A DNA stretch of 64,000 bases from Rhizobium oryzihabitans. GTDB lineage: Bacteria; Pseudomonadota; Alphaproteobacteria; Rhizobiales; Rhizobiaceae. The DNA is taken from NCBI RefSeq assembly GCF_010669145.1, contig NZ_CP048635.1, forward strand, positions 496,001-560,000, given 5' to 3'. Every line of letters begins with the position of its first letter. The first letter of the stretch is position 1. The notes under the pieces are model-generated. The model did no database searches. It was not told the origin of the DNA and saw nothing but the letters and a program-made list of their open reading frames with translations. This document shows positions 1 through 23,054 of the stretch, piece after piece. A program made the translations under genes and the position numbers.

Positions 1-121
1 ATTCGCCGCTTTTGTCATGGTCCGCCGCAGTCAGGCTGAAAATTTCGGCGAGCGCGGTTGCGATGGCGACGGGGTTTGAGGCCTGCTCCGGGCTCGGAAC
101 GGCGGATAGAGCGCCGCTCAT
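1..121 (-). CDS. DszC-like acyl-CoA dehydrogenase-fold flavin monooxygenase, N-terminal fragment
   Basis: Only the first 40 codons lie in the window; the gene runs off the left edge. Its ATG (121-119) overlaps the TGA of the preceding desulfinase-like gene in an ATGA junction, so the two are probably translationally coupled. The readable N-terminus (MSGALSAVPSPEQASNPVAI, then an ALAEIFSLTAADHDKSGE stretch) resembles the start of DszC/SfnB-type flavoproteins, which use reduced FMN to oxygenate sulfur compounds. The intact relative at 8171-9409 supports such an enzyme belonging here. The assignment rests on few residues and on context; an ordinary acyl-CoA dehydrogenase is the alternative. Confidence 0.5.
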   Translation of the reverse strand, partial: MSGALSAVPSPEQASNPVAIATALAEIFSLTAADHDKSGE

Positions 122-3137: not shown

Positions 3138-4127
3138 ATGTCGAATTCGAAACGGATTTTATCGCAGGCAAGGCGGGTCGCCATTCAGGCCATTCCGACG
3201 GTTCTCGGTATCGTCATCCTGAACTTCTTCCTGCTGCAGCTGGCGCCCGGTGATGCGGCCGATGTGCTGGCCGCGGAAGCGGGTTCGGCGACCGTCGAGA
3301 CCATGGCCGAAATCCGCTCCCGCTTCGGGCTTGATCTGCCGGTCGTGCATCAGCTGATGAACTATCTCGGCAATCTGGCCCATTTCAGCCTCGGCTTTTC
3401 GCCGCGCTACGGCATGCCGGTTGCCGATCTTATCGGTCAGCGGTTGCCCGGCACGCTGGCCTTAATGGGCGCGGCGCTCGGCATTGCGATTTTCGTCGGC
3501 GTTTTCCTCGGCTCCATCATGGCGCTCTTTTCCGGAAAGCTGCCCGACCGGATCATTTCGATTGGCTCACTGATCTTTTATTCCGTACCGGGCTTCTGGA
3601 TTGGCCTGATGCTGATCCTGACCTTCTCGGTCAAGCTCGGCTGGCTTCCGTCTGGCGGCGACAGCACCATCGGCAGCAGCCTCACCGGCCTTGACGCCCT
3701 TCTGGACAGGCTGCGCTACATCGTTCTCCCCGCCCTTTCGCTGGCGCTTTATTTTCTGGCGATTTACGCCCGCCTTACCCGCGCGGCGATGCTGGAAGTC
3801 AAATCCCAGGACTACGTGCGCACGGCACGGGCAAAAGGCGTTTCGCCGCTCCGGCTGACCACACGCCATATTCTGCGCAATGCGCTCATCCCGATCACCA
3901 CCATGGCCGGCATGCATATTGGCGGCCTGCTGGGCGGCGCGGTCGTGGTTGAGACCGTCTTCAGCTGGCCGGGGCTTGGCCGTCTGGCTTTCGAAGCCGT
4001 CATGGCCCGCGATTTCAGCGTGCTGCTCGGCATTCTGCTTCTCTCTTCCCTCGTCGTCATCATCGTCAATGCGGCCGTGGACCTGTTGCAGGCATGGCTT
4101 GATCCCCGCATCGGAGAAAGCCGATGA
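3138..4127 (+). CDS. ABC transporter permease, DppB/OppB type
   Basis: The 329-residue inner-membrane protein has a first transmembrane helix near residues 15-35 and a large periplasmic loop, followed by five further helices. The EAA cytoplasmic loop around YVRTARAKGVSPLRLTTRHILRN contacts the ATPases. Length and layout match DppB/OppB permeases. It opens a tightly packed operon: its stop overlaps the start of the next permease. With the three family-5 binding proteins nearby it would import peptides or peptide-like conjugates, here probably sulfur-containing. Confidence 0.9.
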   Translation: MSNSKRILSQARRVAIQAIPTVLGIVILNFFLLQLAPGDAADVLAAEAGSATVETMAEIRSRFGLDLPVVHQLMNYLGNLAHFSLGFSPRYGMPVADLIGQRLPGTLALMGAALGIAIFVGVFLGSIMALFSGKLPDRIISIGSLIFYSVPGFWIGLMLILTFSVKLGWLPSGGDSTIGSSLTGLDALLDRLRYIVLPALSLALYFLAIYARLTRAAMLEVKSQDYVRTARAKGVSPLRLTTRHILRNALIPITTMAGMHIGGLLGGAVVVETVFSWPGLGRLAFEAVMARDFSVLLGILLLSSLVVIIVNAAVDLLQAWLDPRIGESR

Positions 4128-5115
4128 ATTCCTCCCATACATCAGCAGTTCTCGACCCGGCCGAACTCAGCGCTGAAGAGAGCAATCCCAAACCGAAAAA
4201 ACCGGAAGAAAAGGTCTGGCCCTATATTCATGCGCCGGACGCGCTTTCAGCCCGCTCCGCCTCCGTGCCGCGGCGCGGCCTGCGGCGGGAACTGAAGATT
4301 TTTCTCACCAATCCCAATGCCATCGTCGGGCTTTTGTTTCTCGCCACCGTCATCGTCACCGCACTTCTGGCTCCGCTGATCTATCCCGGTGATCCCTTGG
4401 AAATGGTGGCTCGTCCCTTCCTCTGGCCGGGGCAGAATCCAGCCTATCCGCTCGGCACCGATTCCATGGGTCGTGATGTGCTGGCGGGCATCGTGCACGG
4501 CGCGCGCATCTCGCTCACCGTGGGTGTCGTCGCCACTCTGATCGGGCTGACGATCGGCATCACAATCGGCGCTTTCGCCGGTTATTTCGGCGGCGTCATT
4601 GACGATATTCTCGTCAAGCTGATCGAAATCTTCCAGACCCTGCCGAATTTCGTGCTGCTCGTCGTGCTCGTCGCCATCGCCCAGCCGTCGGTCACCACGG
4701 TCACATCGGCCATCGGCATCATCACCTGGCCGCTGGTGGCGCGCCTGACCCGCGCCGAGTTCCGCGCCATCCGCGAGAAAGACTATGTGCTCGCCGCCCG
4801 CAGCCTCGGTTACGGCCATGCGCGTATCGTCTTTCAGGAAATCCTGCCCAATGCCCTGCCGCCGATCATCGTCACCTCCTCGGTCATGGTGGCGGGCGCG
4901 ATCCTTATGGAAGCAGCGCTTTCCTTCATGGGCCTTGGCGATCCCAACCGTGTCTCCTGGGGGTCAATGATCGGTTCCGGCCGCGATGTCATCCGCACCG
5001 CCTGGTATCTGACCGCCCTTCCCGGCCTTGCCATCGTCTTCACCGTCATTTCGCTGAACCTCATCAGCGATGGCCTCAACGATGCGCTCAACCCCCGTTT
5101 TTCGGAGGAACGCCG

Positions 5116-5119
<4 letters not shown>
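4124..5119 (+). CDS. ABC transporter permease, DppC/OppC type
   Basis: The 331-residue partner of the upstream permease starts in a 4-bp ATGA overlap. A hydrophilic, proline-rich N-terminal extension of about 65 residues precedes the first membrane helix, longer than in many DppC proteins. The core is standard: a GTDSMGRDVLAGIVHG motif, several helices, and the EAA loop (DYVLAARSLGYGHARIVFQE) for ATPase contact. Both permeases would form the heterodimeric channel. Confidence 0.9.
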
Positions 5120-7027
<1,908 letters not shown>

Positions 7028-7045
7028 ACTGAAGGAGCAACCATA

Positions 7046-8101
7046 ATGGTCGACTATCGCTATCTCGGACGCAGCGCGCTGAAAGTTTCACCGCTGAGCC
7101 TCGGCACGATGATGTTCGGAGGCCCGACGCCGGATGACGTGGCCTTCCGCATCATCGACAAGGCACGCGAGCAGGGCATCAACTTCATCGACACTGCCGA
7201 TGTCTATCACGACGGAAAGTCGGAAGAGGTCGTCGGTCGCGGCATCAAGGCCAGCCGCGACCACTGGGTTCTGGCAACGAAATTCGTCAATTCCCATACC
7301 AAGGGTCCGAACCTCGGCGGACATTCGCGCAAGTGGGTGATCGAAACAGTCGAGAATTCCCTTCGCCGTCTCAATACCGACTATATCGATATTCTCTATT
7401 TCCACCGCGCGGTCTTCGACGCGCCGCTGGAAGAGCCGGTACGCGCGATTGCCGATCTCATCCGAGCCGGCAAGCTGCGCTATTTCGGCGTTTCGAACTT
7501 CCGCGGTTGGCGTATTGCCGAAATTTCGCATCTGGCCGATCAGCTCGGCATCGACCGGCCTATCGCCAGCCAGCCGCTCTACAACATCGTCAACCGCACC
7601 GCGGAAGCCGAGCAGCTGCCGGCTGCCAACCATTATGGTCTTGGCGTCGTTTCCTATTCGCCGCTGGCACGTGGTGTGCTCACCGGCAAATATCAACCGG
7701 GCGAGCAGCCGGGCGCCGATACCCGCGTCGGCCGCGGCGACAAGCGTGTTCTGGAAACCGAATGGCGTCCGGAATCGGTCGAAATCGCCCAGAAGGTTGC
7801 AGCGCACGCCGCATCGAAGGGCGTTTCGGCAGCCGATTTCGCGCTGGCCTGGGTGTTGAACAACAAGTTCGTCACCGCAGCCATCACCGGCCCGCGCACC
7901 GAAGAGCACTGGAACGGTTACGTCCGCGCCCTCGACGTGAAGATCGATGCGGAAGACGAGGCGCTGGTCGATAGCCTCGTCACCACCGGCCACCCCTCGA
8001 CGCCCGGTTTCAACGATCCGAGCCATCCCGTCGAAGGCCGTGTGCCGCGCAATGTCGAACCCGCTCCCCGCCCGGTCGTCAAGCCGCGCGCGGTCGCCTG
8101 A
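7046..8101 (+). CDS. Aldo/keto reductase
   Basis: This 351-residue (beta/alpha)8 NADPH oxidoreductase starts 18 bp after the ATPase gene with a good ribosome site (AAGGAGC) and is probably in the same operon. The catalytic tetrad is visible: Asp in NFIDTADVYH with the Tyr of the same motif, Lys in LATKFVNS, and His in YFHRAVFD. It resembles the YajO/IolS-like AKR group that reduces aldehydes or ketones. In this setting it could reduce a carbonyl released when a monooxygenase cleaves a C-S bond, which is inference only. Confidence 0.85.
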   Translation: MVDYRYLGRSALKVSPLSLGTMMFGGPTPDDVAFRIIDKAREQGINFIDTADVYHDGKSEEVVGRGIKASRDHWVLATKFVNSHTKGPNLGGHSRKWVIETVENSLRRLNTDYIDILYFHRAVFDAPLEEPVRAIADLIRAGKLRYFGVSNFRGWRIAEISHLADQLGIDRPIASQPLYNIVNRTAEAEQLPAANHYGLGVVSYSPLARGVLTGKYQPGEQPGADTRVGRGDKRVLETEWRPESVEIAQKVAAHAASKGVSAADFALAWVLNNKFVTAAITGPRTEEHWNGYVRALDVKIDAEDEALVDSLVTTGHPSTPGFNDPSHPVEGRVPRNVEPAPRPVVKPRAVA

Positions 8102-8170: not shown

Positions 8171-9409
8171 ATGTCCAATCCTAAAATACAGACCGCAACC
8201 ACCGACAATTCCGGCGTGCCGAGCCGAGAAGACATTCTGGCCCGCGCCAGGGACATTGCGGCTATTGCCGCCAGGGATGCCGCCCGCCGTGAGCGCCAGC
8301 GGGAACTTCCCTTCGAAATCTTCGGCCTAATCAAGCAGGCGAAGATCGGCACGCTGCGCATCCCCGAGGCCAAGGGCGGCCCGGGCGGGTCGATTGCCGA
8401 CTATATCGAAGTGCTGATGATCCTCGGCGAAGCCGACAGCAATATTCCGCACGCACTCCGCAGCCATTTCAATTTTACCGAGAATCTCGCTCTCACACCG
8501 ATCGAGCTTGAGGATCGGCGGCACCTCGAAAATGTCCTCACCGGCAAGCTCTTTGCGGGCGCCAGCACGGAACAGGGGACCAAACGCCCCGGCGAAATCA
8601 CCACGCGCCTCAGCGCCGATGGCGACCGTTATCGTCTGAACGGCCGCAAATGGTATGCGACCGGCACCGCCTTCGCAGATTTCGGCACCTTTAGCGCTGT
8701 CGGCGAAGACGAACAGCCGATCGGCGTCCTCATTCCGCTTGATCGGCCTGGGATCACCATTCTCGACGACTGGGACAGCATGGGCCAGCGCATGACGGCA
8801 AGCGGCGGCGTTTTGCTTGAAAATGTCGAGGTGCTCCCGCATGAACTGACGACCCGCAAGCTCGGCAGCCAGATCGGGCGCCACAGCTCGGCCATGCGAC
8901 AATTGCACCTCGCTGCCTCTGCCGCCGGTGCCGTTCAGGGCGCACTCAACGACGGCATCGACTATGTTCTGCGCCAGGCGCGCACCACGCTCCACAGCAG
9001 CGCCGAAACCGCCAATCAGGACCCCTTTGTGCAGAAGATGCTCGGCGAGATCAGCGCCGGTGCCTTCGCCGTCAAGACGCTGATCCGCGAGGCGGCAAGA
9101 ACGCTCGACAGGACCGCCGCCGCCTTTTCCAGCGGCGACGAAGAGGCGATAGAAGCGGCTTTGCTGGAAGGTTCTCTCGCCACCGCCCGTACCCAGATCA
9201 TCGCATCGCAGCTTTCACTAACGGTCGCCACCAACCTTTACGAACTCGGCGGCGGATCGGCGACATCCAGCGACCGGAATTTCGACCGCCACTGGCGCAA
9301 TATCCGCACGGTCTACAATCACAATCCACTTGCCCACAAGGCGCGGGTGATCGGTGATTATTACCTCAACGGCACTACGACGCACCTCAGGGAAGGCCGG
9401 GTATTCTAG
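8171..9409 (+). CDS. DszC/SfnB-like FMN-dependent monooxygenase (acyl-CoA dehydrogenase fold)
   Basis: The 412-residue protein has the acyl-CoA dehydrogenase fold but lacks the usual CoA-enzyme catalytic Glu context. It matches DszC (417 aa) in length and in its C-terminal motif FDRHWRNIRTVYNHNPLAHK, equivalent to the FDRFWRNVRTHSLHDP region of DszC, keeping the later His and losing the earlier one. The middle DWDSMGQRMTASGG also matches this class. DszC-type enzymes use FMNH2 from a separate reductase and O2 to oxygenate sulfur in the cytoplasm. The gene sits between the aldo/keto reductase and the LysR gene. The substrate is unknown. Confidence 0.8.
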   Translation: MSNPKIQTATTDNSGVPSREDILARARDIAAIAARDAARRERQRELPFEIFGLIKQAKIGTLRIPEAKGGPGGSIADYIEVLMILGEADSNIPHALRSHFNFTENLALTPIELEDRRHLENVLTGKLFAGASTEQGTKRPGEITTRLSADGDRYRLNGRKWYATGTAFADFGTFSAVGEDEQPIGVLIPLDRPGITILDDWDSMGQRMTASGGVLLENVEVLPHELTTRKLGSQIGRHSSAMRQLHLAASAAGAVQGALNDGIDYVLRQARTTLHSSAETANQDPFVQKMLGEISAGAFAVKTLIREAARTLDRTAAAFSSGDEEAIEAALLEGSLATARTQIIASQLSLTVATNLYELGGGSATSSDRNFDRHWRNIRTVYNHNPLAHKARVIGDYYLNGTTTHLREGRVF

Positions 9410-10416: not shown

Positions 10417-11769
10417 TCAGGCGCGTTCCCTTTGCAACTCCTTCGTCGCATGGATGTTTTCCGGCCGGGGCAGGCCGTAATGATCGCGCAGTGTATCGCC
10501 CTCGTAATCCTCGCGGAACAGTCCGCGCTGCTTGAGGATCGGCACGACCTCGTCGACGAAGATATCAAACCCGCCATTCAGCCAGGGCGGCATGATGTTG
10601 AAACCGTCGGCAGCACCTTCACGGAACCAGGTCTCTATCCAGTCCGCCACCTGTTCCGGCGTTCCCGAAATCACCTTGTGGCCACGCCCGCCCGCAAGTC
10701 GGTGCAGCAGTTGCCGGATCGTCGGATTTTCCCGGTCGATGACATCGAGAACCAGCTGATGGCGGCTGCTGTCCGCCTGCGCGCGTGTCGCTTCCACAGC
10801 CTCCTTCGGCAAGGGCTTGTCGAGATCGGCGGATGACAGATCAATACCGGTGATGCGCTGCAACTGCCCGAGCGAAAAGGCCGGCTGAATGAGATCGTTG
10901 AAAGAAGCCTCGAGCTTGCGCGCCTCCTCTTCGGTGGAGGCGATGAAGGGGCTGATGCCCGGCAGGATTTTCACATGGGCGGGATTGCGCCCCGTGGCCG
11001 CCACGCGCCTCTTGATGTCGGAATAAAAAGACCGCGCACTCTCCAGAGTTTGATGCGCGGTAAAGATTGCCTCGGCGTAACGGGCGGCAAAGCCACGCCC
11101 TTCCTCCGAAGAGCCGGCCTGCACATAGACCGGCCTGCCCTGCGGCGAGCGCGGCAGGTTGAGCGCACCCCGTACCCGGTAGAATTCGCCATCATGACTG
11201 GCAGGGTGAATGCGGTCCGTATCGGCAAAAAGACCGCTCTCCTTGTCGGCGACGATGGCATCGTCTTCCCAGCTGTCCCAGAGCTTCGTCACCACATCGA
11301 CAAATTCAGTCGCCTGACGGTAACGGTCGGCATGTGGCGGATGCTGCTGGAGATTGAAGTTTCCGGCCGCCGCATCGGCCGAGGTCGTCACGATGTTCCA
11401 GCCCACCCGGCCGCCGCTGATGTGGTCAACAGAAGCAAACAGCCGCGCGAGATTATATGGCTCGTAATAAGTAGTGGACGCCGTCGCAATGAAGCCGATC
11501 TTTTCGGTGACGGCCGCCAAGGCCGCCAGCATGGTGATCGGTTCCAGCCGGTGGCGGGCGGCATAGCGGATATTGGCATCCAGCACCGGCGCATCGGCAA
11601 AGAAAATGGCATCCAGCTTTGCCGCCTCGGCCTTGCGGGCGATATCCTGATAGAGCCTTATATCAGTGACGCGGAGAGGCTCCGACTCGGGGTGGCGCCA
11701 GGCTGCTTCATGATGTCCGCCCGGATAGATGAATGCATTGAGAACCAGCTTCTCGGATTTTCTGCTCAT
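10417..11769 (-). CDS. DszA/SnaA/NtaA-family FMN-dependent monooxygenase
   Basis: The 450-residue luciferase-like protein matches DszA (453 aa) in length and motifs: an N-terminal YPGGHHEAAWRHPES, the AVTEKIGFIATASTTYYEPY strand, SGGRVGWNIVTT, LPRSPQGRPVYVQAGSS, and a C-terminal REDYEGDTLRDHYGL. Enzymes of this family use FMNH2 and O2 to open sulfones, chelating amines or S-substituted N-acetylcysteines. It is the last gene of the minus-strand run from 20291 and converges on the LysR gene with a 16-bp gap. A flavin reductase partner is not in the window. Confidence 0.88.
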   Translation of the reverse strand: MSRKSEKLVLNAFIYPGGHHEAAWRHPESEPLRVTDIRLYQDIARKAEAAKLDAIFFADAPVLDANIRYAARHRLEPITMLAALAAVTEKIGFIATASTTYYEPYNLARLFASVDHISGGRVGWNIVTTSADAAAGNFNLQQHPPHADRYRQATEFVDVVTKLWDSWEDDAIVADKESGLFADTDRIHPASHDGEFYRVRGALNLPRSPQGRPVYVQAGSSEEGRGFAARYAEAIFTAHQTLESARSFYSDIKRRVAATGRNPAHVKILPGISPFIASTEEEARKLEASFNDLIQPAFSLGQLQRITGIDLSSADLDKPLPKEAVEATRAQADSSRHQLVLDVIDRENPTIRQLLHRLAGGRGHKVISGTPEQVADWIETWFREGAADGFNIMPPWLNGGFDIFVDEVVPILKQRGLFREDYEGDTLRDHYGLPRPENIHATKELQRERA

Positions 11770-11822: not shown

Positions 11823-13418
11823 TCACGCCTCCTTCGTCACCCACGCTTTGGCGAGATTGCCGCTGAGACCCTCCGCCCCTGTCGCGTAATCCTTGATGCG
11901 GACGCTGCCGACGACCGGCTGGATGGGAGAAACGAGATTGATGACGGGAAGATCTTTGGCGACCACGGCCTGAAACTCCCTAAAGAAGGCCGCGCGCTTT
12001 TCGATATCCGGCTCCACCGCCGCCGCTTCCAGCAACCGGTCCACTTCCGGATTGGCGTAATGGCTGGCATTCGAGAACGGCAGGCCGATCTTGAAGTTCT
12101 TGCTCCAGTAGACGCGCTGCACGCCGGCCGTCGGATCGAAGGTATTGGAGAGGGATTCGACCGAAAGGTCCCAGGCGCGGTCGGTATAAACGACCTTCAC
12201 ATAGGTGCCGAAATCGAATTTCTGGATATCCGCCTCGATGCCGATCTTCGATAGCGCCTGTGCGATGAAATCCGAATAGGTCTGCGGATTGAACGGGTTG
12301 GTGGTGACCCGGAGCTTGAAGCGCTTGCCACCTTCCTTGCGGGGGAAGCCTGCCTCATCCAGCAGTTTTTCAGCCAGCGCTACGTCGAATTTGGCAAAGC
12401 CGATATCCGGATTGTGGAACTTCGCAAGGCCGGGGCTGATAGGCGTGGGCGATGGCACGGCATAACCGTAAAGCACGGTATCGATCAGCGCCGGAACGTC
12501 GATCGCGTGGGCGATGGCCTGCCTCACCTTCAGCTCTTTCAGATATTCGTTCTCAAGGTTGATGACGAGCTGGTTTTGCTGGCCGGCATAGGCATAGATG
12601 CGGTCATCCACCTTCAGCGTCGGGATGGATTTCAGCCGTTCCAGATCGGCAAGCGCCACCGGGTTCGGGCCAATGTCGCCCTCCCCGGTTTCCAGCGCCG
12701 CCGCGCGTGCGCCGGCATCGTTGATGAGGCGAATGATGACGCGGTCGAGATGAGGGCGTGGCGCGTCCCAGTAGTCGGCATTTTTTTCCAGAAGAATATG
12801 GCTGCCCGGCACCCATTCCTTCAGCACGAAAGGACCGCTGCCGATAATCTGGGCGGGCTTCGGATTATCGGTCGGCTTGAAGGTCTCAAAGATGTGCTTC
12901 GGCACGATTGGCGATTCAGACGAGGCGAGCGCGGTGATCAATCCCGGCGCCGGCCTGGAAAGCTTCACCTTCGCGACCAGCGGATCGGACGTATCGACGC
13001 TTTCAACATGCGAGAAAGTCGCCCGGCCGCGCGGATGGGCTTCCTTCAGCCGCAGGATCGAAAATTCCACATCCGCCGATGTCACCGGCTTGCCATCATG
13101 AAACTTCGCGTTCGGCTGCAGATGGAAGACATATTCCAGCCCGTCGGCGGAAACGCTCCATTCTTTGGCAAGGCTCGGCTTTGGCGAAAGCTCGTAGTCA
13201 TAGGTCAGAAGCCCGTCATAAATCTTCGAGCCGATGAACTGCGGACCGCCCGCGCTGGTATTGATCGCCACGAGCTGCGTCGGCTCGGGAAAATAGACGA
13301 TCTTGAGCGTACCGCCCGAAACTGGCTCTTCGGCAGCGGCGAAAGAACCGCCGGGAAGCGCCACGAAAGCGCCGGCGGCAAGTGCAATTTTATGAAACTG
13401 GCGTCTGGAAAAGGTCAT
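11823..13418 (-). CDS. ABC transporter family-5 substrate-binding protein (second of three)
   Basis: The 531-residue protein starts at 13418, where CGGAGACAG precedes the ATG; the frame extends to 13457 without a better site. The N-terminus (MTFSRRQFHKIALAAGAFVA) carries a Tat-type twin-arginine signal. The mature part is a standard SBP_bac_5 protein, close to the first paralogue across its length, for example in the GLLTYDYELSPKPSLAKEWS block. It lies 53 bp upstream of the DszA-like gene, which suggests the imported ligand is a precursor of that enzyme's substrate. The likely transporter is 3138-7027. Confidence 0.85.
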   Translation of the reverse strand: MTFSRRQFHKIALAAGAFVALPGGSFAAAEEPVSGGTLKIVYFPEPTQLVAINTSAGGPQFIGSKIYDGLLTYDYELSPKPSLAKEWSVSADGLEYVFHLQPNAKFHDGKPVTSADVEFSILRLKEAHPRGRATFSHVESVDTSDPLVAKVKLSRPAPGLITALASSESPIVPKHIFETFKPTDNPKPAQIIGSGPFVLKEWVPGSHILLEKNADYWDAPRPHLDRVIIRLINDAGARAAALETGEGDIGPNPVALADLERLKSIPTLKVDDRIYAYAGQQNQLVINLENEYLKELKVRQAIAHAIDVPALIDTVLYGYAVPSPTPISPGLAKFHNPDIGFAKFDVALAEKLLDEAGFPRKEGGKRFKLRVTTNPFNPQTYSDFIAQALSKIGIEADIQKFDFGTYVKVVYTDRAWDLSVESLSNTFDPTAGVQRVYWSKNFKIGLPFSNASHYANPEVDRLLEAAAVEPDIEKRAAFFREFQAVVAKDLPVINLVSPIQPVVGSVRIKDYATGAEGLSGNLAKAWVTKEA

Positions 13419-13458
13419 GTCTGTCTCCGAAAAAATCCGATGGGCGGGGTGCGGCAAC

Positions 13459-13797
13459 TCAGTGCAGCTGCGGGAACCCGTGGCGCTCGGCGAGGATTTG
13501 CAAAATTCGTTTGGTGTCCTGAATGAAGTGCGTGTCGCCCTTTACCGTGGCGTCAGCGGGCGCATCGCCGGCAAAGACGAACAGCGGCAACGACTGGTTT
13601 TCCTCACCCGCAGCGGCGATGACCGCCTCGCGCGGACGCTGAAAACCAACCCGGTGGATATCGATCCCGGCGGCTAAGTCCGGAAAGGCGGCAATCAGGC
13701 CTTCGATCTGGTTACAATGCGGGCAGACGAACCGGACACCGGGGTGCCTGGGGTCCTCAAAACCGGGGGCAATCAAAAAAAGCGTATCCTTGGCCAT
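13459..13797 (-). CDS. DUF3088 family protein, thioredoxin-like with CPHC motif
   Basis: From the ATG at 13797 the protein has 112 residues (MAKDTLFLIAPGFEDP...). It contains VCPHCNQIEGL, a thioredoxin-like CxxC, and the GEENQSLPLFVFAGD block typical of DUF3088. Earlier ATGs at 13827 and 13848 are possible, but family members start at the chosen site. No function is established; the fold suggests thiol-disulfide or glutathione-type chemistry, which suits an organosulfur locus. It is 40 bp upstream of the second binding-protein gene and separated from the upstream gene by a terminator and a repeat, so it probably opens a transcription unit. Confidence 0.7.
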   Translation of the reverse strand: MAKDTLFLIAPGFEDPRHPGVRFVCPHCNQIEGLIAAFPDLAAGIDIHRVGFQRPREAVIAAAGEENQSLPLFVFAGDAPADATVKGDTHFIQDTKRILQILAERHGFPQLH

Positions 13798-14042
13798 GGC
13801 ATCCATCATTTGCGGGTGAGATTTCATGAGCACATTGCAGGTGGTCAAAGCGTGGGTCCAGAAAGCAATTCTTGCTTTGAAACGAAGAATTCCTTCGCTC
13901 TAAATCTTTGATGAAACTGATTTTTTCAGGGTTTGGATAGCCGGCATCGCTGTTCTTGACGACCTGTTTCACGAGAAATGTTTTTTCCGAAAACGGGCTT
14001 GCCGCGCGAAGGCGACAAAACGGACGGAGGCCAGTTTCCGGC

Positions 14043-14071
14043 AATAAAAAACCCGGCGGAATGGCCGGGTT
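14043..14071 (-). terminator. Rho-independent terminator
   Basis: On the minus strand an AACCCGGC/GCCGGGTT stem (14050-14057 with 14064-14071) is followed by a T-rich tail (14043-14050). It is positioned to end transcription of the binding-protein gene at 14259-15847, before the DUF3088 gene. The stretch between it and 13798 holds two small tandem hairpins (13862-13878 and 13883-13897) and no ORF worth calling. Confidence 0.75.
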
Positions 14072-14094
14072 AATGTCGATGGTCGCAGACCTCT

Positions 14095-14232
14095 CTTCCG
14101 TCATGCCGGTCCCCGGAACAAGCCCGAGGATGACCCGGCATCCAGCCACGGTGCGTCTGCGCCGTGAAGGGACTCTTTCGCGATCAAGGACTTGATCGTG
14201 CTGGACCCCGGAACTGGTCCGGGGTGACGGAG
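14095..14232 (+). repeat. Rhizobial intergenic palindromic element, copy A
   Basis: This 138-bp element begins CTTCCGTCATGCCGG and ends near CCGGGGTGACGGAG. It is rich in internal palindromes, including a GATCAAGGACTTGATC hairpin. The same element occurs inverted at 27173-27292; copy A carries about 18 extra bases near its left end (GAACAAGCCCGAGGATGAC). Its layout resembles RIME-type mosaic elements of rhizobia. It lies outside coding DNA once the frameshift at 14420 is taken into account. Confidence 0.75.
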
Positions 14233-14258
14233 TGTGGAGGATGCCACTTTGCCAAAGC

Positions 14259-15847
14259 TCACTCACTTTTCCAGGCAGTCGACAAATCGCCATAGGCGAT
14301 ATCAATCGTGGTGACGAGCGACCGGAGGCTGGTGTTGCGCAGAATGACGGTCGGCAGGGCGACGATCGAGAAATTCGGCAATTCGTCCCCGGTGATTTTC
14401 TGGATGTCGTGGAACTGCCCGCCCGTTTCGTTTCATCCACTTCAATCGCGGCGGCACGGAAAAGATCGTCCACCCTGGGATTGTTGTAGTGGGCGGCGTT
14501 GACATAGGGCGCGGTTTTCTTGATGCCATCCGACCAGTAGAGGCGCTGCACGCCCGCCGTCGGATCAAACAGCCGGCTGATGCCGTTCACCGTGAGATCA
14601 AAACCACGCTCCGTATAGACGCGCTTGATGAAGGTGGCGAGATCGCCTTCCACGATATCCACCTTCACGCCGAGCTTGCCGAAGGACGAGCGCAGATATT
14701 CGGAGGTTTTGCGGAAGACGTCGGAGGGCAGAAAGGCCAGCCGCAGCGAAAAACGGGTGCCATCCGCGCCCTTCGGATACCCCGCTTTATCGAGCAGCTC
14801 GTTCGCCTTGGCCAGATCAAAGGGATAGGTGAAAGGCTTCTCGTCATTATAGGTGGTGAAGACCGCCGGAATGTTCGAACCGGCGGGTTTTGCCGTGCCA
14901 AAGAAGATGGCGTCATTGATGAAATTACGGTCAATGGCATGGGCCAGCGCGTGCCGGACCTCCTTTTTCGCGAGGATCGGGTTCTCCAGATTGAACTCGA
15001 ATATGGCGGCATTGTTGAGATAGGAGTCGGTATAGACTTCCACCGAAAGCTTGGGATTTTGCCGAAGGCGCTCCAGATCGCTGTAGGAAACATCGGCGGT
15101 GTAATCCGCCTCGCCCGTTTCCACCGAGATGGTGGTGGAGGCCGCATCGGCGACGAACCGCGCCACGAAGCCATCGAGATAGGGAAGATCGGCCTGCCAG
15201 TAGTTCGGGTTCTTCCTGAGCTTTACATAGCTACCGCGTTTCCATTCCTCGAACACGAAGGGGCCGGTGCCGACGGGCGCGTTGCCGTTCGGGCTTTCAT
15301 TGTAGTTTTCCAAAGCATAGGCATGGGCCGGCAGAATGGGCGTTTCGCCGCCGGTCAACGCCCGCAGAAGATAGGGCGCGGGTTTGGACAGCACCACCAC
15401 GGCCGTGAGCGGATCGGGCGTTTCGATATCGGAAACATTGGCGAAGGTGATGCGGCCGCGTGGGCCCACCTTCTTGAAGGCGAGCAGGGAAAATTTCACA
15501 TCCTGCGCGGTGAAATCCTTGCCATCATGCCATTTGACGCCCTTGCGCAGCTTGAAGGTGTAGCGCAGCCCGTCAGCGGAGGTTTCCCAGCTTTCGGCGA
15601 GAACCGGATGCGGCTTGAACTCGCTGTCGAAGCGCACCAGACCTTCAAGGATTTTGGTGGAAATGGCGCGCGTGCGCGTATTGGAATCGGAAAGCGGCAC
15701 AAGCGTCGTCGGCTCTCCGAGACCCGCAAGGGTAACAATACCGCCCTTTTTCGGGGTTTCCGCCGCCAGTATCGGCAGGGATGGCAGCAGCATGGCCGCA
15801 CCTAGCGCAGCACTCAAAAGCAATGTCTTACGTCGTGTAATATCCAT
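14259..15847 (-). pseudogene. ABC transporter family-5 substrate-binding protein (third of three), frameshifted near its 3' end
   Basis: The open frame from 15847 matches the two paralogues up to ...EVDETKRAG and then turns into low-complexity sequence running through terminator and repeat DNA to 13757, clearly not protein. In a second frame the expected ending continues (QFHDIQKITGDELPNFSIVA ... STAWKSE) to a TGA at 14259. Adding one G in the GGGCGGG at 14418-14424 rejoins them to a normal 529-residue protein. The N-terminus has a Tat-like signal (MDITRRKTLLLSAALGAAML). As written, the last 55 or so residues are lost. It lies downstream of the M20 deacylase gene. Confidence 0.8.
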
Positions 15848-15882: not shown

Positions 15883-17082
15883 TCAGGCAGGCTTCAGCCG
15901 GGTTTCGACCAGCCGGGCAAACAAGGTGGCACCGACCGGCAAGATTGCATCGTCGACAATGAAACCGGGATTATGGGCTGGCACGGTGCCGGAATGACCG
16001 AGGGTGAAAAACGCACCGGGCGCATGTTTCAGGAGATCGGCGAAATCCTCGCTACCCATAAAGCGGCCAGGCTCGGTGGAAACGCGCTCGTCTCCGAGAA
16101 CCTCGCGCGCCACTCCGGCAACGATCTCCACCGATGCTTCATCATTGGTCAAAACCGAGAATATATCGCGAATATCCACCTCGGCGGAGAGCCCATAAGC
16201 GGCGGCAATGTGATCGGAAATCGTGCGGATTCGGCCCCTTATGGTCTCGCGTACGCTGTCGGAGAAGGCCCGCACCGTGCCCGCAATCGAGGCCGTTTCG
16301 GGAATGACATTATAGGCCGATCCCGCCTCGATGCGGGTGATCGACAGGACAGCGGGATCGGTCGGCGGCACATTGCGGCTGACGATGGTCTGTAAGGCCT
16401 GAATGAGTTCTCCCGTTGCCGGCACCGGATCACGCGAGACATCCGGGTGGGCGGCGTGGGCACCCCTGCCCTTCAGCCGGATATCGAAGAAATCGGCGCC
16501 TGCCAGAATGGTGCCGGGCGAGACCTTCAGATGGTTCGGTGCTGCATGGGAGGAATTGTGCAACCCGTAAATCTCATCGACGGGGAAATCCTTGAACAAC
16601 CCATCGGCGATCATGGCGCGTGCGCCACCCAGACCTTCCTCGGCGGGCTGGAAAATGAAGATCACCGTGCCGGCAAAATCACGGGTTTCCGCCAGATAGC
16701 GGGCAGTGCCGAGCAATATGGTGGTGTGCACATCATGCCCGCAACCGTGGAACTTGCCGGGATAGACCGATGCATAGGGCAGCCCGGTTTCTTCCGGCAT
16801 CGGCAGGGCATCCATATCGGCCCTCAGCCCGATGGAACGGTTGCCCGCGTGCCGACCGTGCAGCACGCCGACCACGCCGGTCTTGCCATATCCGCGATGC
16901 ACCTCGATGCCCCAGGAGGCGAGTTTTTCAGCAACGATACCGGAGGTGCGCACTTCCTCGAAACCGATTTCCGGATGTTGGTGAATATCATGGCGGATGG
17001 AGACGAGTTCGGGAACATAGGTCCCGATCCGGTCGAGGATTTTCGGCGCGGGCGTTTTGACGGGATCGACGGCAATATTCAC
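15883..17082 (-). CDS. M20 family amidohydrolase (hippurate hydrolase/N-acyl amino acid deacylase type)
   Basis: This 399-residue metal hydrolase has the M20D pattern: HQHPEIGFEE, GLRADMDALPMPEE, GCGHDVHTTILLG and IFQPAEEGLGG, then the dimerisation domain and a C-terminal MGSEDFADLLKHAPG. Such enzymes remove acyl groups from N-acyl amino acids in the cytoplasm. B. subtilis YxeP, a relative, works with an SnaA-type monooxygenase to recover cysteine from S-substituted N-acetylcysteine. The same pairing here, with DszA/SnaA-like genes and uptake genes, suggests a similar job, though the substrate is not shown by the sequence. Confidence 0.85.
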   Translation of the reverse strand: MNIAVDPVKTPAPKILDRIGTYVPELVSIRHDIHQHPEIGFEEVRTSGIVAEKLASWGIEVHRGYGKTGVVGVLHGRHAGNRSIGLRADMDALPMPEETGLPYASVYPGKFHGCGHDVHTTILLGTARYLAETRDFAGTVIFIFQPAEEGLGGARAMIADGLFKDFPVDEIYGLHNSSHAAPNHLKVSPGTILAGADFFDIRLKGRGAHAAHPDVSRDPVPATGELIQALQTIVSRNVPPTDPAVLSITRIEAGSAYNVIPETASIAGTVRAFSDSVRETIRGRIRTISDHIAAAYGLSAEVDIRDIFSVLTNDEASVEIVAGVAREVLGDERVSTEPGRFMGSEDFADLLKHAPGAFFTLGHSGTVPAHNPGFIVDDAILPVGATLFARLVETRLKPA

Positions 17083-17175: not shown

Positions 17176-18345
17176 TCAGAGCCTCAGGCCAGCTTCCTTC
17201 ATCAAGGGCAGAATGCGCTCAGCGAAATATTCGAGGTCTTCGCGGAAATCGTAGAAATTCAGCTGCACGCCATCGATGCCGGCCTTTTTCAGGCCAACAA
17301 GCTGCTCGACCACCTGCTCCGGCGAGCCGATGATTTCGATATTGCCACCGAGATTGCGCCCCTGCTTGTGACGCGCATCGCCGCGGCCGCGCCAGGCATG
17401 GGCGTCGCTGTCGTAATTGTTGGTCGCAAAGGCACGGGTGCCGGACTGCGGTTTTCCGGCCTCAATGGCGTCGGCATAGGCGATCGCCTCCCTTTCCGTG
17501 TCACGGCTGACGATGATCGGGTTGATGAGCATCTTCACCTGCCGGCCATAGGCCTTGGCGCGGTTCTTGATGGTGGCGATATGATCGGGAAGCGTTTCCA
17601 GCGCGCTGTCGATATGCGCGCCGCCGGGCGAGGTAACGAAAACCAGATCGGAATGGCGGGCGGCGAAATCAATACCGGCCGGTGAACCGGTCGCCGTCAC
17701 CAGCGGCGGGCGGCCAAAGGCGGGCTTCGGCGTTATCCAGCCACTGTTGATGGCCCAGGGGTTCAACTTGCCCTCATAGGAGAAGTTCTCGGTTTCTCCC
17801 CACAGGCGGTGAAGCACATCGAACAATTCGCCCGCCATATCGTAGCGCTTGTCATGGTCGATCCGCTGCCAGCCGAACATTTCATGCTCGACGGCGCGGT
17901 GGCCCGTGACGATGTTGATGCCCCAGCGTCCCTTGGCGATATGATCCAGCGTCGCGCCATATTTTGCGAGATGAAGCGGGTGCAGGGGACCGTAAAGCAC
18001 ATGGATGGTGGAGATCAGCAGAATGCTCTTCGTGACCGCCGCCATGGCGCCCAGCGCAATGAAACTGTCGAGCGAGGATTCGCCATCATATCCGCCCTTG
18101 GGCAGCCATTGCGTGCGGCTGAAGGCGATTTCGAAACCAAGCTCTTCCGCCCGCTTCACCAGTTCCGCATTGTAATCGAAGGTCCAGCTATTGCTGGTCG
18201 GCAGGCTGGAGAAATTGATATCCTGCAGATTGAGGAACAGTCCCAGCATCAGCGGCTGTTTTACCGCGCGGCTGAGCGGGCTGTCTTCGAAATCAGTTGG
18301 GCCTTTCAGCTCGGGACCTTCAGGCAAAGGAACAGTCAGCGCCAT
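17176..18345 (-). CDS. SfnG/SsuD-like FMN-dependent monooxygenase
   Basis: The 389-residue luciferase-like protein follows the SfnG/SsuD pattern: N-terminal GLFLNLQDINFSSLP, ISTIHVLYGPLHPLHLAKYG, GRWGINIVTGHRAVEHEMFG, and the C-terminal LEYFAERILPLMKEAG typical of dimethylsulfone and alkanesulfonate monooxygenases. These use FMNH2 to cleave or oxidise C-S bonds. The start overlaps the end of the reductase-like gene by 10 bp, indicating one operon running from 20291. An exact substrate cannot be given. Confidence 0.8.
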   Translation of the reverse strand: MALTVPLPEGPELKGPTDFEDSPLSRAVKQPLMLGLFLNLQDINFSSLPTSNSWTFDYNAELVKRAEELGFEIAFSRTQWLPKGGYDGESSLDSFIALGAMAAVTKSILLISTIHVLYGPLHPLHLAKYGATLDHIAKGRWGINIVTGHRAVEHEMFGWQRIDHDKRYDMAGELFDVLHRLWGETENFSYEGKLNPWAINSGWITPKPAFGRPPLVTATGSPAGIDFAARHSDLVFVTSPGGAHIDSALETLPDHIATIKNRAKAYGRQVKMLINPIIVSRDTEREAIAYADAIEAGKPQSGTRAFATNNYDSDAHAWRGRGDARHKQGRNLGGNIEIIGSPEQVVEQLVGLKKAGIDGVQLNFYDFREDLEYFAERILPLMKEAGLRL

Positions 18346-19231
18346 GTCTTTTCTCCCTCGGAATGATCGCCCTGCGGGGTGGTCGCTGCTAGCCGGGCAC
18401 GCAGATAGTCTTCCACGCTGCGGGGCAACCGGCCGGTGATCTGGTGGACGGTATCGTTGACGGAGGCCGCGAGGCCTTCGCGGATGAGTTGGCCGAATTC
18501 CCCAATCGCCTTCTGTTCGAACACACCGATATGCGGTGGAAATGCTGTGCCGGAATTATGCGATATCCCGACGGGGCGATGAAGGATACGAGCCGCGATG
18601 CGGGCGATTTCCAGCGCCGTCAAGGCTTCGCCACCCGTCAGCACGAAGGCGCCGGAAACAGGCACGCTCGCGGTCAGGGCGTGAACCGCCACATCGGCTA
18701 TATCGTCGGCATCGATGAAGGAAACGGCCGCATCGCCGAAACGGGCGGGAACATCTTCCCCTTGCGTAGTGCTGCGACGACAGGTTCCAGCGCCACCTGC
18801 ATCCAGGCATTCGGCCGCAGCACCGCATGCGCAATGCCGCTCCCGGTCAGGTGTTTTTCCACCTCGGCATGGGCCGCACCCGAGATGGAGCGTGCCGCAT
18901 TGGCGATGGTCCAGTCGGAGCCGGAGATTTTCACGATCCGCGATACGCCGGCGGAGAGAGCGGCATCGATGACCGCATTCTGGTCCGCCGCCAGCGTTTC
19001 ACCGATTGGGGAAAGCAGGAACACCGTGCCTATTCCGCGTGAGGCCTCTTTCAGACTGGTCGGATCGGAAAAGTTTCCCTCCGCGATATCCACCCTGTCG
19101 CCCCAGAGTTTGAGCGCATCCTCACGCCGGCGGGTCAGCACCCGAACCTTCGCCTCTTTCTGCAAAAGACGGGTGACGACGCGTTGGCCGAGCTTACCGG
19201 TTGCACCCGTTACAAGAATGGTTGCCGTCAT
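18336..19231 (-). pseudogene. NmrA/QorB-like NAD(P)-binding reductase with a single-base frameshift
   Basis: The first frame (19231-18698) encodes a Rossmann start (TILVTGATGKLGQRVV) and reads to KGKMFPP. A second frame then continues the expected sequence (ARFGDAAVSFIDADDIADVA, VHALTASVPVSGAFVLTGGE) to a TGA at 18336. One missing C in the run at 18743-18749 explains the break; repaired, the protein has 298 residues, normal for NmrA/QOR2-type reductases. Its neighbours are the DszB-like and SfnG-like genes with gaps or overlaps under 11 bp. Such a protein could reduce quinones or act as a redox sensor. Confidence 0.78.
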
Positions 19232-19238
19232 GACGCCC

Positions 19239-20291
19239 TCACTTCGCAGCAGGTTGCAGTAAAGAAAGGGCGCGCGGATCGACCCAATCGTTCACATCGA
19301 AATCGTCAGGGATGAATTTCCATTCCAGCAGGAAATCCTTGAAGTGACTGAGCGCATCCAGCTCCGCCGGATCGAGATCGAGCCTCAGGCTTCGGTACAC
19401 ATCCGCCCCGTTGGCGGCGATAACCGCTTCCTCGCTGACACCGATCTCGCGGGCGATGAAACGCACCGCTTCCGCCGGATTATCATTCGCCCAGCCGGAA
19501 ACCCGCTGTACCGTAGCCAAGAGGTCGGCGACCAGATCGGGCCTTTCATCGGTAAATCTGGCATCCACAGTCAAAGGACGTGGCGTGCCGTTATTGATGC
19601 GGATTTTCGGATCGGGGTGAAAGCCGGTCGACACGACGACGTGCGCGCCAATGAGATTGGCGACGGTGACGCCTTCCGCTCCCTTGACAAAAAACGCATC
19701 GATCTGCCCGCGATGCAATGCCGCGATCTCCTCCCCATAGGGCAGCCGGCGGCGCAAGCCATGGAACCTGTCGTCAGCCGGCCCGAGCAGCACTGGCTCG
19801 GTAGCGGTGAGATCGACCAGCTCGACCTCCGCGACGGAAAGGCCGGAAACGGTCAGTGCCGATACGATGCCCTTGAGCGATGTCGCGCGCTGGAAGTCGA
19901 TGGTTTCGTTCGGCCGTTTCGGCAGCCCGATGCGCCGGCCCTTCAGTTCGCCGCCCTTTGTTATCCCGCTGGCTGGCAGGGCTATGACCGCCTGAAACTC
20001 GTCGGTCCTTGTCAACCCGACAAGACGCGTCTGGCGTCCGCCGGATTTTGCCCAGATAGGCGGAATATTGCCGCCTTGGCGGAAAGACCAGTCCAGACGG
20101 TGATCGAAATGGCTCTGGCGAATGGCCGGGTCGGCCGCATCGCGAATGGAGGAAACGGTAATGCCATAGCCGGCGAAACTCTCCTCGATCCAGCCAAGCT
20201 GCACCGCGATGGAAAGCGGCGTGGGCGCCGGGCAACGTGTGTACCAGACTGTTTCAGGGTGGGTTGCTTGGCGAAGGGCCGCATCAGCCAT
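19239..20291 (-). CDS. DszB-like sulfinate desulfinase (usually annotated as sulfonate-binding protein)
   Basis: The intact 350-residue protein has the periplasmic-binding-protein fold family of SsuA/NMT1 but no signal peptide or lipobox, so it should be cytoplasmic. It aligns with the desulfinase DszB: YTRCPAPTP matches YSNCPVPN (Cys20 to Cys27), and SHFDHRLDWSFRQGGNIPP matches the segment with His60 and Arg70 (His61 and Arg71 here, same 10-residue spacing, followed by the conserved Gly-Gly). DszB cleaves an aryl sulfinate to sulfite. I infer that this enzyme desulfinates a sulfinate made by the neighbouring monooxygenases. It is first in the minus-strand run. The alternative is a non-catalytic binding protein. 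Confidence 0.78.
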   Translation of the reverse strand: MADAALRQATHPETVWYTRCPAPTPLSIAVQLGWIEESFAGYGITVSSIRDAADPAIRQSHFDHRLDWSFRQGGNIPPIWAKSGGRQTRLVGLTRTDEFQAVIALPASGITKGGELKGRRIGLPKRPNETIDFQRATSLKGIVSALTVSGLSVAEVELVDLTATEPVLLGPADDRFHGLRRRLPYGEEIAALHRGQIDAFFVKGAEGVTVANLIGAHVVVSTGFHPDPKIRINNGTPRPLTVDARFTDERPDLVADLLATVQRVSGWANDNPAEAVRFIAREIGVSEEAVIAANGADVYRSLRLDLDPAELDALSHFKDFLLEWKFIPDDFDVNDWVDPRALSLLQPAAK

Positions 20292-20357
20292 GGCGTTCGT
20301 CCTCTCAATTGTGATCTGGGCAGCACGCTACACGTCATAAAATATTTTCTATAGATA

Positions 20358-20367: not shown

Positions 20368-20653
20368 TTTGAGAGGCCGTTGAGGAAATTCGTTTCCATA
20401 TCAACGGCGCTTTACGCTTCTGAAAAAATATCCTTTCGGAAATGACATCATTTTCGGACGAAGCTTCGACAGCTAACGGCGCTCGACGTGGGGGCGTCTC
20501 CCGGGAGCGGACAGCCATGGCGCGAAAGTTTTTCTTCTCCTGACAGCAAGGATTTTTAACTCGCGACCGGAACCCCGGCTGTTACGCTTCCCCGCAATTG
20601 CGCCGGATGTGCAAGCCGGCAATCCAACAGACCCAAAAAGAAAAAGTGGCAGC

Positions 20654-21961
20654 ATGAGCACGAACAAACGCCGGCTCAATCTCAATGTCGGCATCAACAC
20701 CACCGGATACCTCGCCAATGCCTGGAAATACAGGAGCGGAGACCGGCACGATATCAATGACATCGGCTATTACCGGCGACTGGCGGAACTGGCCCACAAA
20801 GGCCGGTTCGACGCCGTGTTCCTTTCGGATCATCCAGCATTACTGACCGACCCGACAAGCCGGCCGTTTCACACCATCGATCCGCTCATCCTCTCCACAT
20901 CGCTTGCCGCACAGGTGCCGGATATCGGCTTTGTGGCGACGGTGTCCTCCACCTATAATTCGCCCTATAATTTTGCGAGACGAACGCAATCCATCGATAT
21001 CGTCACCGGCGGCCGGTTGATCGTCAACATCGTCTCCTCCTTCAATCCCAGTGTCGCCGCCAATTTCGGCAACGACCCGCTGCCGCCGCGCAATGAGCGA
21101 TATGCCAAGGCGACCGAATTTCTCGATGTCGCGAAAAAGCTCTGGTCGAGCTGGGATCCCCGCCGCGAAGGCGAGGTGCCCGAAGGCCGCTTCTGGGATG
21201 CAGCTACAGCCGAGACGATCGATCATGAGGGGCAATATTTCCATGTGAAAGGCCCGCTCAACGTGCCGCGCGGACAGCAGGGTCACCCCGTCATTGCCCA
21301 GGCCGGCGCTTCCGAAGGCGGCATTGATCTGGCGGCGCGTCACGGCGAGATCATCTATTGCAACATATTGTCCCGCCCCGCCGGCCAGGCCTTTGGCAAA
21401 AAGGTCCGTGACCGCGCCGTCTCCTTCGGCCGCGATCCCTCGGGCATCCGCATCGTTCCGGGTCTCGTCGTCATTCTCGGAGAGACGCGTGAGGAAGCGT
21501 TGCGCAAACACGAACTTTACAGCGGAACCGGCTCGGAAGACGGTCTTCTGGCACGGTTCGCCAAGGAAAACGGTATCGATCCGCGTGATTTTGATCCCGA
21601 CGCGAAGCTGGATGCGGAACGCTTCATTCCCGACCAGAACCGGCAATGGGCAGTCGGCATGGGGCTTGGCCTTTCCGATCTGCTGAGCCATGAAAAGCTC
21701 ACCGCCCGCGAGGCCGTGCGGCGCTCGGAGGGGCACCATCGGCTGCTGCTTGGCACACCGGAAGAGGTGGCGGACGGCATCATCGACCTCTGGCAGGACG
21801 GCACGGTTGACGGCTACACATTGCAGCCGCCCCGCGCCCCTGATGATATCGCCGAATTCGTCCAACAAGTCGTGCCGGTGCTTCAGGATCGTGGCGTTTA
21901 CCCGCGCGAATACGAAGGCACGACTATACGCGACAGATACGGCCTGCCCCAGCCGGACTGA
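20654..21961 (+). CDS. DszA/NtaA-family FMN-dependent monooxygenase (second)
   Basis: From the ATG at 20654 the protein has 435 residues; an upstream frame to 20609 has no ribosome site. It is a luciferase-like enzyme of the NtaA/SnaA/DszA group: GINTTGYLANAWKY, FVATVSSTYNSPYNFAR, TGGRLIVNIVSSFNP, LNVPRGQQGHPVIAQAGASE and a C-terminal YPREYEGTTIRDRYGLPQPD. It is only distantly similar to the one at 10417 and probably has another substrate. It is transcribed divergently from the DszB-like gene, sharing the 20292-20653 regulatory gap. Confidence 0.87.
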   Translation: MSTNKRRLNLNVGINTTGYLANAWKYRSGDRHDINDIGYYRRLAELAHKGRFDAVFLSDHPALLTDPTSRPFHTIDPLILSTSLAAQVPDIGFVATVSSTYNSPYNFARRTQSIDIVTGGRLIVNIVSSFNPSVAANFGNDPLPPRNERYAKATEFLDVAKKLWSSWDPRREGEVPEGRFWDAATAETIDHEGQYFHVKGPLNVPRGQQGHPVIAQAGASEGGIDLAARHGEIIYCNILSRPAGQAFGKKVRDRAVSFGRDPSGIRIVPGLVVILGETREEALRKHELYSGTGSEDGLLARFAKENGIDPRDFDPDAKLDAERFIPDQNRQWAVGMGLGLSDLLSHEKLTAREAVRRSEGHHRLLLGTPEEVADGIIDLWQDGTVDGYTLQPPRAPDDIAEFVQQVVPVLQDRGVYPREYEGTTIRDRYGLPQPD

Positions 21962-22025: not shown

Positions 22026-23054
22026 CTATTGAGCTGTCGCCACTTTCAAAACGGGCCGCCCGCCGGAAAGCTGCGGCACGACGGACGCGAAATCCGTCAC
22101 GATCTGGCGATAGTCTTCCGGCTGGAATTCATAGGGCAGTTCCAGACGGAATTCCGAGACATGCGGCAGAACGGGATCGCGCGACAGCTTCCCCAGAATT
22201 TCATCCGTCGTCCCGACGATATCAGGCAGAAAAAGCGTGCGGCGCGCACCATGCGGCGTATGCGTGCGCTTGTCACGCTCAGCCGCAAATTCGGTATAAC
22301 GGCGGCGGGTCGCCGGGCTGGCGCTGTCCGTCGGCAGGATCACGCGACCGAGTGCGACGCGCGGCTGGCGCTCATGCGCCCATTCCTGCCGGAAGCGGGC
22401 AACGAGGGCCGCCTGTGCCGCCAGAAAATCATCGGTATTTTCACCGCTGACGATATTGCCGGTCAGGAGATTAAAGCCCGCCTTCCCCGCCCAGCGCGCG
22501 GAATTCTGCGATCCGCCGCCATACCACAGCCGGTCGGTCAAACCCCTGGCAAAGGGCCGAAGGCGCGGCACCTGCGCGCCCGCCGCATTGCCCGCCTCCG
22601 TTTCGCTGGACAGCGGTTCCGATCTCAAGGCCCTGGCGAGCTTTTCGGCACGGGCATGGCTGAAATCCGCATCGGGTGCCGTATCGACGTAATCCGAAAT
22701 CAGATGGGCGAAAGGCGGCGCGCCCACGGAAACGCCGACATTCAGCCGTCCGTGTGACAGCACATCTACGGTGGCGAGATCTTCGGCCAGCCGGAAAGGG
22801 TTCTCGTAACCGAGCTGGATGACGGCGGTGCCGAGCCCGATCCGCTTCGTGCGCTGCGACGCCGCTGCGAGAAAGGTGGCAGCCGAGGACACGCCGCGTT
22901 CCAGATGGCGCTGGCGAACCCAGGCGCTGTCATAACCCAGCGCCTCCCCGGCTTCGAAAAGCTGCAGGGTTTCCTCCAGCCCCAGCGCTGGATCATCATC
23001 ATGATAATTGCCGGGAACCAGAAAGGCGAAGTGGGAGATATGGGAAAGGGGCAT
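22026..23054 (-). CDS. Luciferase-like flavin-dependent oxidoreductase
   Basis: This 342-residue member of the bacterial luciferase family is recognised by HFAFLVPGNYHDDD at the N-terminus, SAWVRQRHLERGVSSAATFL, RIGLGTAVIQLGYENPFRLA, LSHGRLNVGVSVGAPP and LTGNIVSGEN. It is not close to DszA or SfnG. A single-gene unit, it lies next to the second DszA-like gene, and its upstream gap holds a TAGTCTACTA motif shared with the other island promoters. Oxygenation of a sulfur or other small organic compound is plausible, but the substrate cannot be read. Confidence 0.78.
   Translation of the reverse strand: MPLSHISHFAFLVPGNYHDDDPALGLEETLQLFEAGEALGYDSAWVRQRHLERGVSSAATFLAAASQRTKRIGLGTAVIQLGYENPFRLAEDLATVDVLSHGRLNVGVSVGAPPFAHLISDYVDTAPDADFSHARAEKLARALRSEPLSSETEAGNAAGAQVPRLRPFARGLTDRLWYGGGSQNSARWAGKAGFNLLTGNIVSGENTDDFLAAQAALVARFRQEWAHERQPRVALGRVILPTDSASPATRRRYTEFAAERDKRTHTPHGARRTLFLPDIVGTTDEILGKLSRDPVLPHVSEFRLELPYEFQPEDYRQIVTDFASVVPQLSGGRPVLKVATAQ

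Follow-up and report, generated by a model that had tools for sequence, protein, structure and literature searches.

The window analysed here, a stretch of 64,000 nucleotides from Rhizobium oryzihabitans, holds a gene for a DszB-like protein surrounded by genes for flavin monooxygenases and components of peptide-type transporters. The genes of this island are the following, in the order of their coordinates:

118..1148, minus strand: second DszB-like gene, in two pieces (51% and 56% identical to the first copy) split between two frames
3138..8101, plus strand: peptide-type ABC transporter (3138-7027; two permeases and two ATPases, assigned from sequence and conserved order), then an aldo/keto reductase
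8171..9409, plus strand: DszC/SfnB-like flavin monooxygenase of the acyl-CoA dehydrogenase fold; nearest solved relatives 8cda, TdsC, methanesulfinate monooxygenase
10417..11769, minus strand: flavin monooxygenase of the NtaA/DmoA family; closest solved relatives YtnJ/MoxC, then 3sdo and DszA
11823..13457, minus strand: peptide-type binding protein (SBP_bac_5)
13459..13848, minus strand: DUF3088 protein with a CPHC motif; its gene is flanked by those of two peptide-type binding proteins
13757..15847, minus strand: peptide-type (SBP5) binding protein; its end is unlike that of its relatives, a congener copy has 529 aa, and the gene is probably frame-broken
15883..17082, minus strand: M20 family amidohydrolase/peptidase, in the same direction as the DszB-like gene
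17176..18345, minus strand: SfnG-related LLM-class flavin monooxygenase; best solved relative 8t0u (dimethylsulfone monooxygenase SfnG), E 7.9e-42
18350..19231, minus strand: NmrA-like NAD(P)-binding gene, open over 18698-19231 and frame-broken beyond it; a congener copy is uninterrupted (298 aa)
19239..20291, minus strand: DszB-like protein of 350 aa; ATG ORF without a signal peptide, with Cys20, His61 and Arg71-Gly73-Gly74
20609..21961, plus strand: divergent flavin monooxygenase of the NtaA/DmoA family; closest solved relative EDTA monooxygenase 5dqp; DszA 5tlc at E 4.6e-59
22026..23054, minus strand: further LLM-class flavin monooxygenase

The ORF at 19239..20291 is preceded by a purine-rich stretch that could act as a ribosome site, and a scan of positions 20200-20700 for promoters and terminators found none. 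The NmrA-like gene starts 7 bases after the stop of the DszB-like gene, in the same direction, and is followed by the SfnG-related monooxygenase gene, an order retained in 16 of 19 loci (matches above 40% identity); in the congener locus L050 these last two genes overlap. An earlier note on this DNA had described the operon mates as flavin monooxygenases and not permeases. As regards the monooxygenases, this applies to the SfnG-related enzyme encoded after the NmrA-like gene, but the next gene itself is NmrA-like, and an M20 hydrolase and peptide-type binding proteins are encoded there as well. As regards the permeases, one SsuA and one SsuC query found nothing in the window at E 1e-10, although peptide-type permeases are present in separate units.

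The region concentrates genes of this enzyme class, since 8 of the 18 luciferase-like matches of the 5.86 Mb genome fall within 35 kb (C4:483984-518985), four of them before the window, and a flavin reductase is encoded there too, some 7.6 kb ahead of the window start. Three genes within 19 kb (118-1148, 13757-15847 and 18350-19231) appear frame-broken, with uninterrupted copies in relatives; the breaks are due either to errors of sequencing or to gene decay in this strain. The closest loci with a name belong to Agrobacterium, namely to A. arsenijevicii and an A. tumefaciens strain, with 97% protein identity. Models of anti-phage defence had no match.

Kinship with DszB and the N-terminal motifs

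Sequence comparisons support the view that the window protein is a relative of DszB, the 2'-hydroxybiphenyl-2-sulfinate desulfinase also named TdsB, and not an exported sulfonate-binding protein. A single-sequence search of the PDB gave a convincing match to DszB alone (2de2, E 1.4e-11; 2de3, E 4.2e-10), the two other rows both having an E of 0.018. When a profile of 36 homologs was used, DszB was matched over its full length (E 1.1e-20), whereas SsuA (2x26) was matched over 55 positions (E 0.0036). In profile-profile comparison, the alignment with DszB extends over 324 columns and includes the Cys motif (E 4.2e-38), and that with nine SsuA-type proteins extends over 279 columns and starts after this motif (E 7.6e-23). 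The identity between DszB and the window protein is about 25%.

The likeness to SsuA is that of a broad superfamily, with similarity in the C-terminal part. The window protein passes the Pfam NMT1/THI5-like model (27.4 bits, gathering score 20.5) and scores 77.2 bits with the NCBIfam SsuA model TIGR01728, below its cut-off of 163.5. A DszB-superfamily profile scanned over the collected loci gave 248-497 bits for whole DszB-like copies, 204-324 for partial ones and 20-66 for SsuA-type proteins; its seed included both the window protein and DszB, so that these scores display two groups rather than provide independent proof. The reading as a THI5/NMT1 pyrimidine synthase was rejected, as the protein has a single cysteine, whereas those enzymes carry a CCCFC cysteine cluster.

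The homologs listed in the databases mostly carry the name "ABC transporter substrate-binding protein", as expected from the claim that automated annotation would miss the kinship with DszB. Nevertheless, a few entries are already named "putative dibenzothiophene desulfurization enzyme B" or "desulfurase", so this claim does not hold throughout and the kinship itself is not new.

In the alignment to DszB, Cys20, His61, Arg71, Gly73 and Gly74 of the window protein fall on Cys27, His60, Arg70, Gly72 and Gly73, exactly the positions proposed beforehand, Cys20 being the sole cysteine of the 350 residues. The spacing had been given as the same as in DszB, which is correct for the interval between His and Arg (10 residues in both proteins) and for the RxGG motif, but not for the interval between Cys and His, which comprises 41 residues instead of 33 due to an insertion of eight. 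At the position of DszB Ser25 the window protein has Thr18.

The absence of a signal peptide and a lipobox was also borne out: judged by hydropathy and motif position rather than by a dedicated predictor, the N-terminus shows neither of them and lacks a hydrophobic core. The Cys motif was found in 119 of the closest 120 homologs listed, the remaining one keeping the Cys but not the following Pro. This Cys occupies residue 10-20 in 118 of the 119, so that a signal peptide would hardly fit in front of it, and residue 46 in one. The SsuA-type proteins compared, three from the same genome and one from Sphingobium, have hydrophobic N-termini. The DszB-like gene and its relatives are under strong purifying selection, with dN/dS values of 0.066-0.154 in the nine pairs computed (18 loci, L009-L026), of which five have a dS above 1 and give rough ratios.

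Position in the tree and conservation of the active site

A tree of the SsuA, NMT1 and DszB families had been suggested in the earlier note as a check, and it separates the window protein from the SsuA types. In the maximum-likelihood tree of 69 rows, the 10 SsuA-type rows form one side of a 100/99 branch; 13 rows, including all six DszB/TdsB rows, make up the DszB clade (100/99); and 46 rows make up the clade of the window protein (98/96), which is sister to the DszB clade and not inside it. These rows remain from 83 collected, after exclusion of 13 near-copies and one truncated row; neither the three shorter DszB-like fragments nor the lowest-scoring SsuA-type matches were part of the collection. 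One and the same profile retrieved the SsuA-type rows as well, the tree contains long branches, and the program cautions that long-branch joins may be false, so the deep branching order is less certain than the support values suggest.

The residues corresponding to the DszB active site are conserved on both sides of the sister relationship. Thinning the 59 rows of the window clade at 90% identity left 40 representatives, of which 37 have the Cys, 38 the His and all 40 the Arg and both Gly; the DszB clade has the five residues in 13 of 13 rows. In contrast, none of the 10 SsuA-type rows holds the Cys, the His or the Arg, and nine of them have the second Gly. The SsuA reading was rejected on the TIGR01728 cut-off, the N-terminus, the tree and the absence of an SsuC-type permease match in the window. 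Sequence, profile, tree, conservation and N-terminus thus agree with the earlier view of a DszB-like protein rather than an exported binding protein, as far as homology is concerned.

A protein of this ancestry may still bind without catalysing. In that case, it would be a leaderless sulfonate- or sulfinate-binding protein, serving as a sensor in the cytoplasm or derived from a binding protein by loss of the signal peptide, an explanation that we regard as unlikely. It would agree with the score above the Pfam NMT1 gathering threshold and with the match to the SsuA model, albeit below its cut-off, and non-catalytic members of the clade do seem to exist. In fact, Ser replaces Cys in five of the 59 clade rows (three of the 40 thinned ones), which come from four genomes of another class (family f182) and one Burkholderia locus and lie in clusters that also hold Cys-bearing copies, so not every member need be catalytic. 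However, Cys is kept in the window protein and in the closest 120 homologs listed, the SsuA and SsuC queries had no match in the window, and the transporters present have peptide-type binding proteins of their own. These points argue against that explanation, and we infer catalysis for the window protein.

The Ser-for-Cys copies are located at L044 8859-9920, L045 9909-10970, L046 9988-11877, L048 7320-9011 and L037 ~5266-6294. They resemble a natural version of the inactive C27S mutant of DszB and are possibly binding partners. The Burkholderia copy at L037 ~5266-6294, a separate gene, lacks both Cys and His, and the copy at L033 2093-3268 lacks His only, these being the two clade rows without His. 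Every Cys- or His-deficient copy shares its locus with a copy holding both residues.

Other members of the superfamily carry different labels. On the Sphingobium plasmid L033, two proteins annotated as "monooxygenase" (2219-3271 and 4704-5819) score as DszB-like with the profile (264 and 309 bits); this brings the DszB-like genes of the cluster to three, and the two labels look wrong. A DszB-like protein of greater divergence, with the motifs YTNCP and RFGG, is encoded on a Rhizobium leguminosarum plasmid (L036 5812-7110), next to a homocysteine S-methyltransferase gene, and groups in the tree with two copies from L042 in a third branch.

The second copy and the distribution of the clade

The second DszB-like gene of the window shows the same motifs in its first piece, and uninterrupted copies of it occur in congeners. 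A first-type copy is present in 25 of the 39 genomes of the genus (its own included), all of which also match the second copy (23 with a whole gene, two with a split or partial one), and one further genome of the genus has the second copy only. The two copies are separated by 18-20 kb in 20 of the 25 genomes and by a greater distance in two, and they lie on different contigs in three. Beyond the genus, the DszB-like genes are rare: matches at E <= 1e-20 came from at least 6 of 199 genomes of the family, at least 3 of 289 of the class and at least 7 of 398 of the phylum, its own genome being counted in each. These figures are lower bounds, since the number of candidates scored for each genome was capped. 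Two or more DszB-like genes also occur at each of the loci from S. meliloti, Sphingobium and Burkholderia.

The genetic context was compared for 39 DszB-like genes at 25 loci, which were hand-chosen and are not independent, several contexts being cut by the end of the locus. Within 6 kb, an LLM monooxygenase is encoded in 31 contexts, a DszC/SfnB-like enzyme in 11, an SsuC-like permease in 15 and an SsuA-like protein in 15. SsuA operons also carry an LLM monooxygenase, SsuD, so LLM neighbours do not tell a desulfinase from SsuA. More informative are the 15 contexts with an SsuC-type permease, of which 11 have a separate SsuA-type gene within the same distance, so that the DszB-like proteins would be surplus there as binding proteins. 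The four contexts without one are L041, L042 (two genes) and one gene of L048.

Substrate and proposed pathway

Several features set the window protein apart from DszB despite the full-length homology, the Cys, His and RxGG residues and the lack of a signal peptide that they share. Trp155 and Phe203 of DszB, which may make hydrophobic contact with the biphenyl substrate (PMC6100217) and are invariant in a 22-sequence DszB alignment, correspond to a gap and to His177, respectively. The stretch around DszB residues 131-154 is also absent. At the same time, the window clade keeps residues of its own (Thr18, Arg19, His64, Asn75, Lys203, Arg231, Asn233 and Arg238) at 85% or more, as computed without the Burkholderia row at L037 ~5266-6294. 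The loss of the biphenyl-pocket residues, together with these conserved residues, points to a different substrate, which probably exceeds the biphenyl sulfinate of DszB in polarity. Given the M20 hydrolase and the peptide-type importers, our guess would be a compound with an amide bond.

These differences also bear on whether the protein could be a true DszB, acting in a dibenzothiophene desulfurization pathway. DszA- and DszC-related genes lie within 12 kb and a few entries name close homologs after dibenzothiophene desulfurization enzyme B. However, the clade is sister to that of DszB, the pocket is not retained, DszA and DszC are not the nearest solved relatives of the oxygenases, and the locus has no dszABC operon, all of which makes this reading very improbable. 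Assignment to DszB proper was rejected on the biphenyl-pocket residues and the tree.

What is known of the DszB mechanism gives the retained residues different weights. Cys27 is critical, and His60 and Arg70 appear to bond the sulfinate, although a His60 mutant keeps some activity after a loss of about 17-fold and Arg70 is assumed to be structural, so the conservation of His and Arg is weaker evidence than that of Cys. Calculations favour protonation of the carbon by Cys27, SO2 being lost; they were made for an aromatic carbon, and the mechanism is unlike that of other desulfinases and cofactor-free (all according to PMC6100217). We infer, by analogy, that this mechanism could apply to the window protein.

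The preferred reading, to which we assign a probability of about 70%, is that the window protein works in the cytoplasm as a sulfinate desulfinase without a cofactor, forms with its relatives a separate clade of the DszB superfamily and acts in the following putative pathway. The substrate would probably enter the cell through the island's peptide-type ABC transporters and be oxidised at the sulfur by the DszC/SfnB-like enzyme, after which FMNH2-dependent sulfone monooxygenases of SfnG/DszA type encoded next to the gene would cut the product to a sulfinate. His61, Arg71 and Gly74 would hold the sulfinate, and Cys20 would pass a proton to the sulfur-bearing carbon, as calculated for Cys27 of DszB, with departure of SO2 or sulfite. 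Assimilation of the released sulfite would then complete a 4S-like sulfur-scavenging pathway for a polar, probably water-soluble compound. The oxygenase neighbours are indeed relatives of sulfone- and sulfinate-making enzymes.

Some decarboxylases use the DszB-type fold, and a protonation of DszB type may be coupled to another leaving group, as in a decarboxylase of an aromatic acid. The many charged residues conserved only in this clade would suit such an enzyme, and the protonation of an aromatic carbon described for DszB (PMC6100217) could serve decarboxylation. Nevertheless, the protein retains the sulfinate-contacting His, Arg and Gly of DszB, and the neighbours are related to sulfone- and sulfide-oxidising enzymes; we therefore consider a decarboxylase less probable still than a binding protein, and a sulfinate desulfinase remains the preferred reading.

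The proposed route can be compared with two known systems. Like the 4S pathway (dszABC), the island combines relatives of a sulfide monooxygenase, sulfone monooxygenases and a desulfinase in one region, but they belong to different subfamilies, are distributed over several transcription units and are accompanied by peptide-type importers and an amidohydrolase. Dimethyl sulfone utilisation by SfnG and SfnB is mirrored by the SfnG-related monooxygenase near the gene and the SfnB-related enzyme about 10 kb away; both, however, score below the respective equivalog cut-offs, and the dimethyl sulfone route oxidises the sulfinate to a sulfonate, with no direct removal of sulfite. In a Rhodoferax sulfolane study that sought a 4S route, relatives of DszA were found and no DszB (PMC6395730). 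Among the open-access papers listed by literature searches, none describes this clade in Rhizobiaceae in its title or at the start of its abstract.

DszB is considered the slow, product-inhibited bottleneck of biodesulfurization (PMC12168087). A sister clade with the same active-site set and a different pocket would offer natural variants to compare with it and would indicate the natural function that DszB evolved from. It would also correct the naming of genes annotated as sulfonate-binding proteins, and the island would provide a testable sulfur-scavenging route in plant-associated bacteria. A broader proposal, which we advance tentatively and at somewhat less than even odds, is that this scattered clade of Pseudomonadota, whose members are at present mostly classed as sulfonate-binding proteins, is a second branch of cofactor-free sulfinate desulfinases, operating together with the neighbouring oxygenases in natural, non-petroleum 4S-like pathways that free sulfur from polar plant or soil compounds, with the oil-desulfurising DszB as a specialised side branch. 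The two conserved Agrobacterium paralogs would then act on two different sulfinates or combine into a single enzyme, and the partners without the Cys in other bacteria would be subunits with a regulatory or binding role.

An adjoining sulfite oxidase was dropped as evidence for the pathway, because the genome to which the window belongs has no Mo-co_dimer match. On S. meliloti pSymA, a SorA-related molybdopterin oxidoreductase (L034 14481-15650; 177.5 bits, cut-off 600) adjoins the DszB-like cluster and could oxidise the released sulfite.
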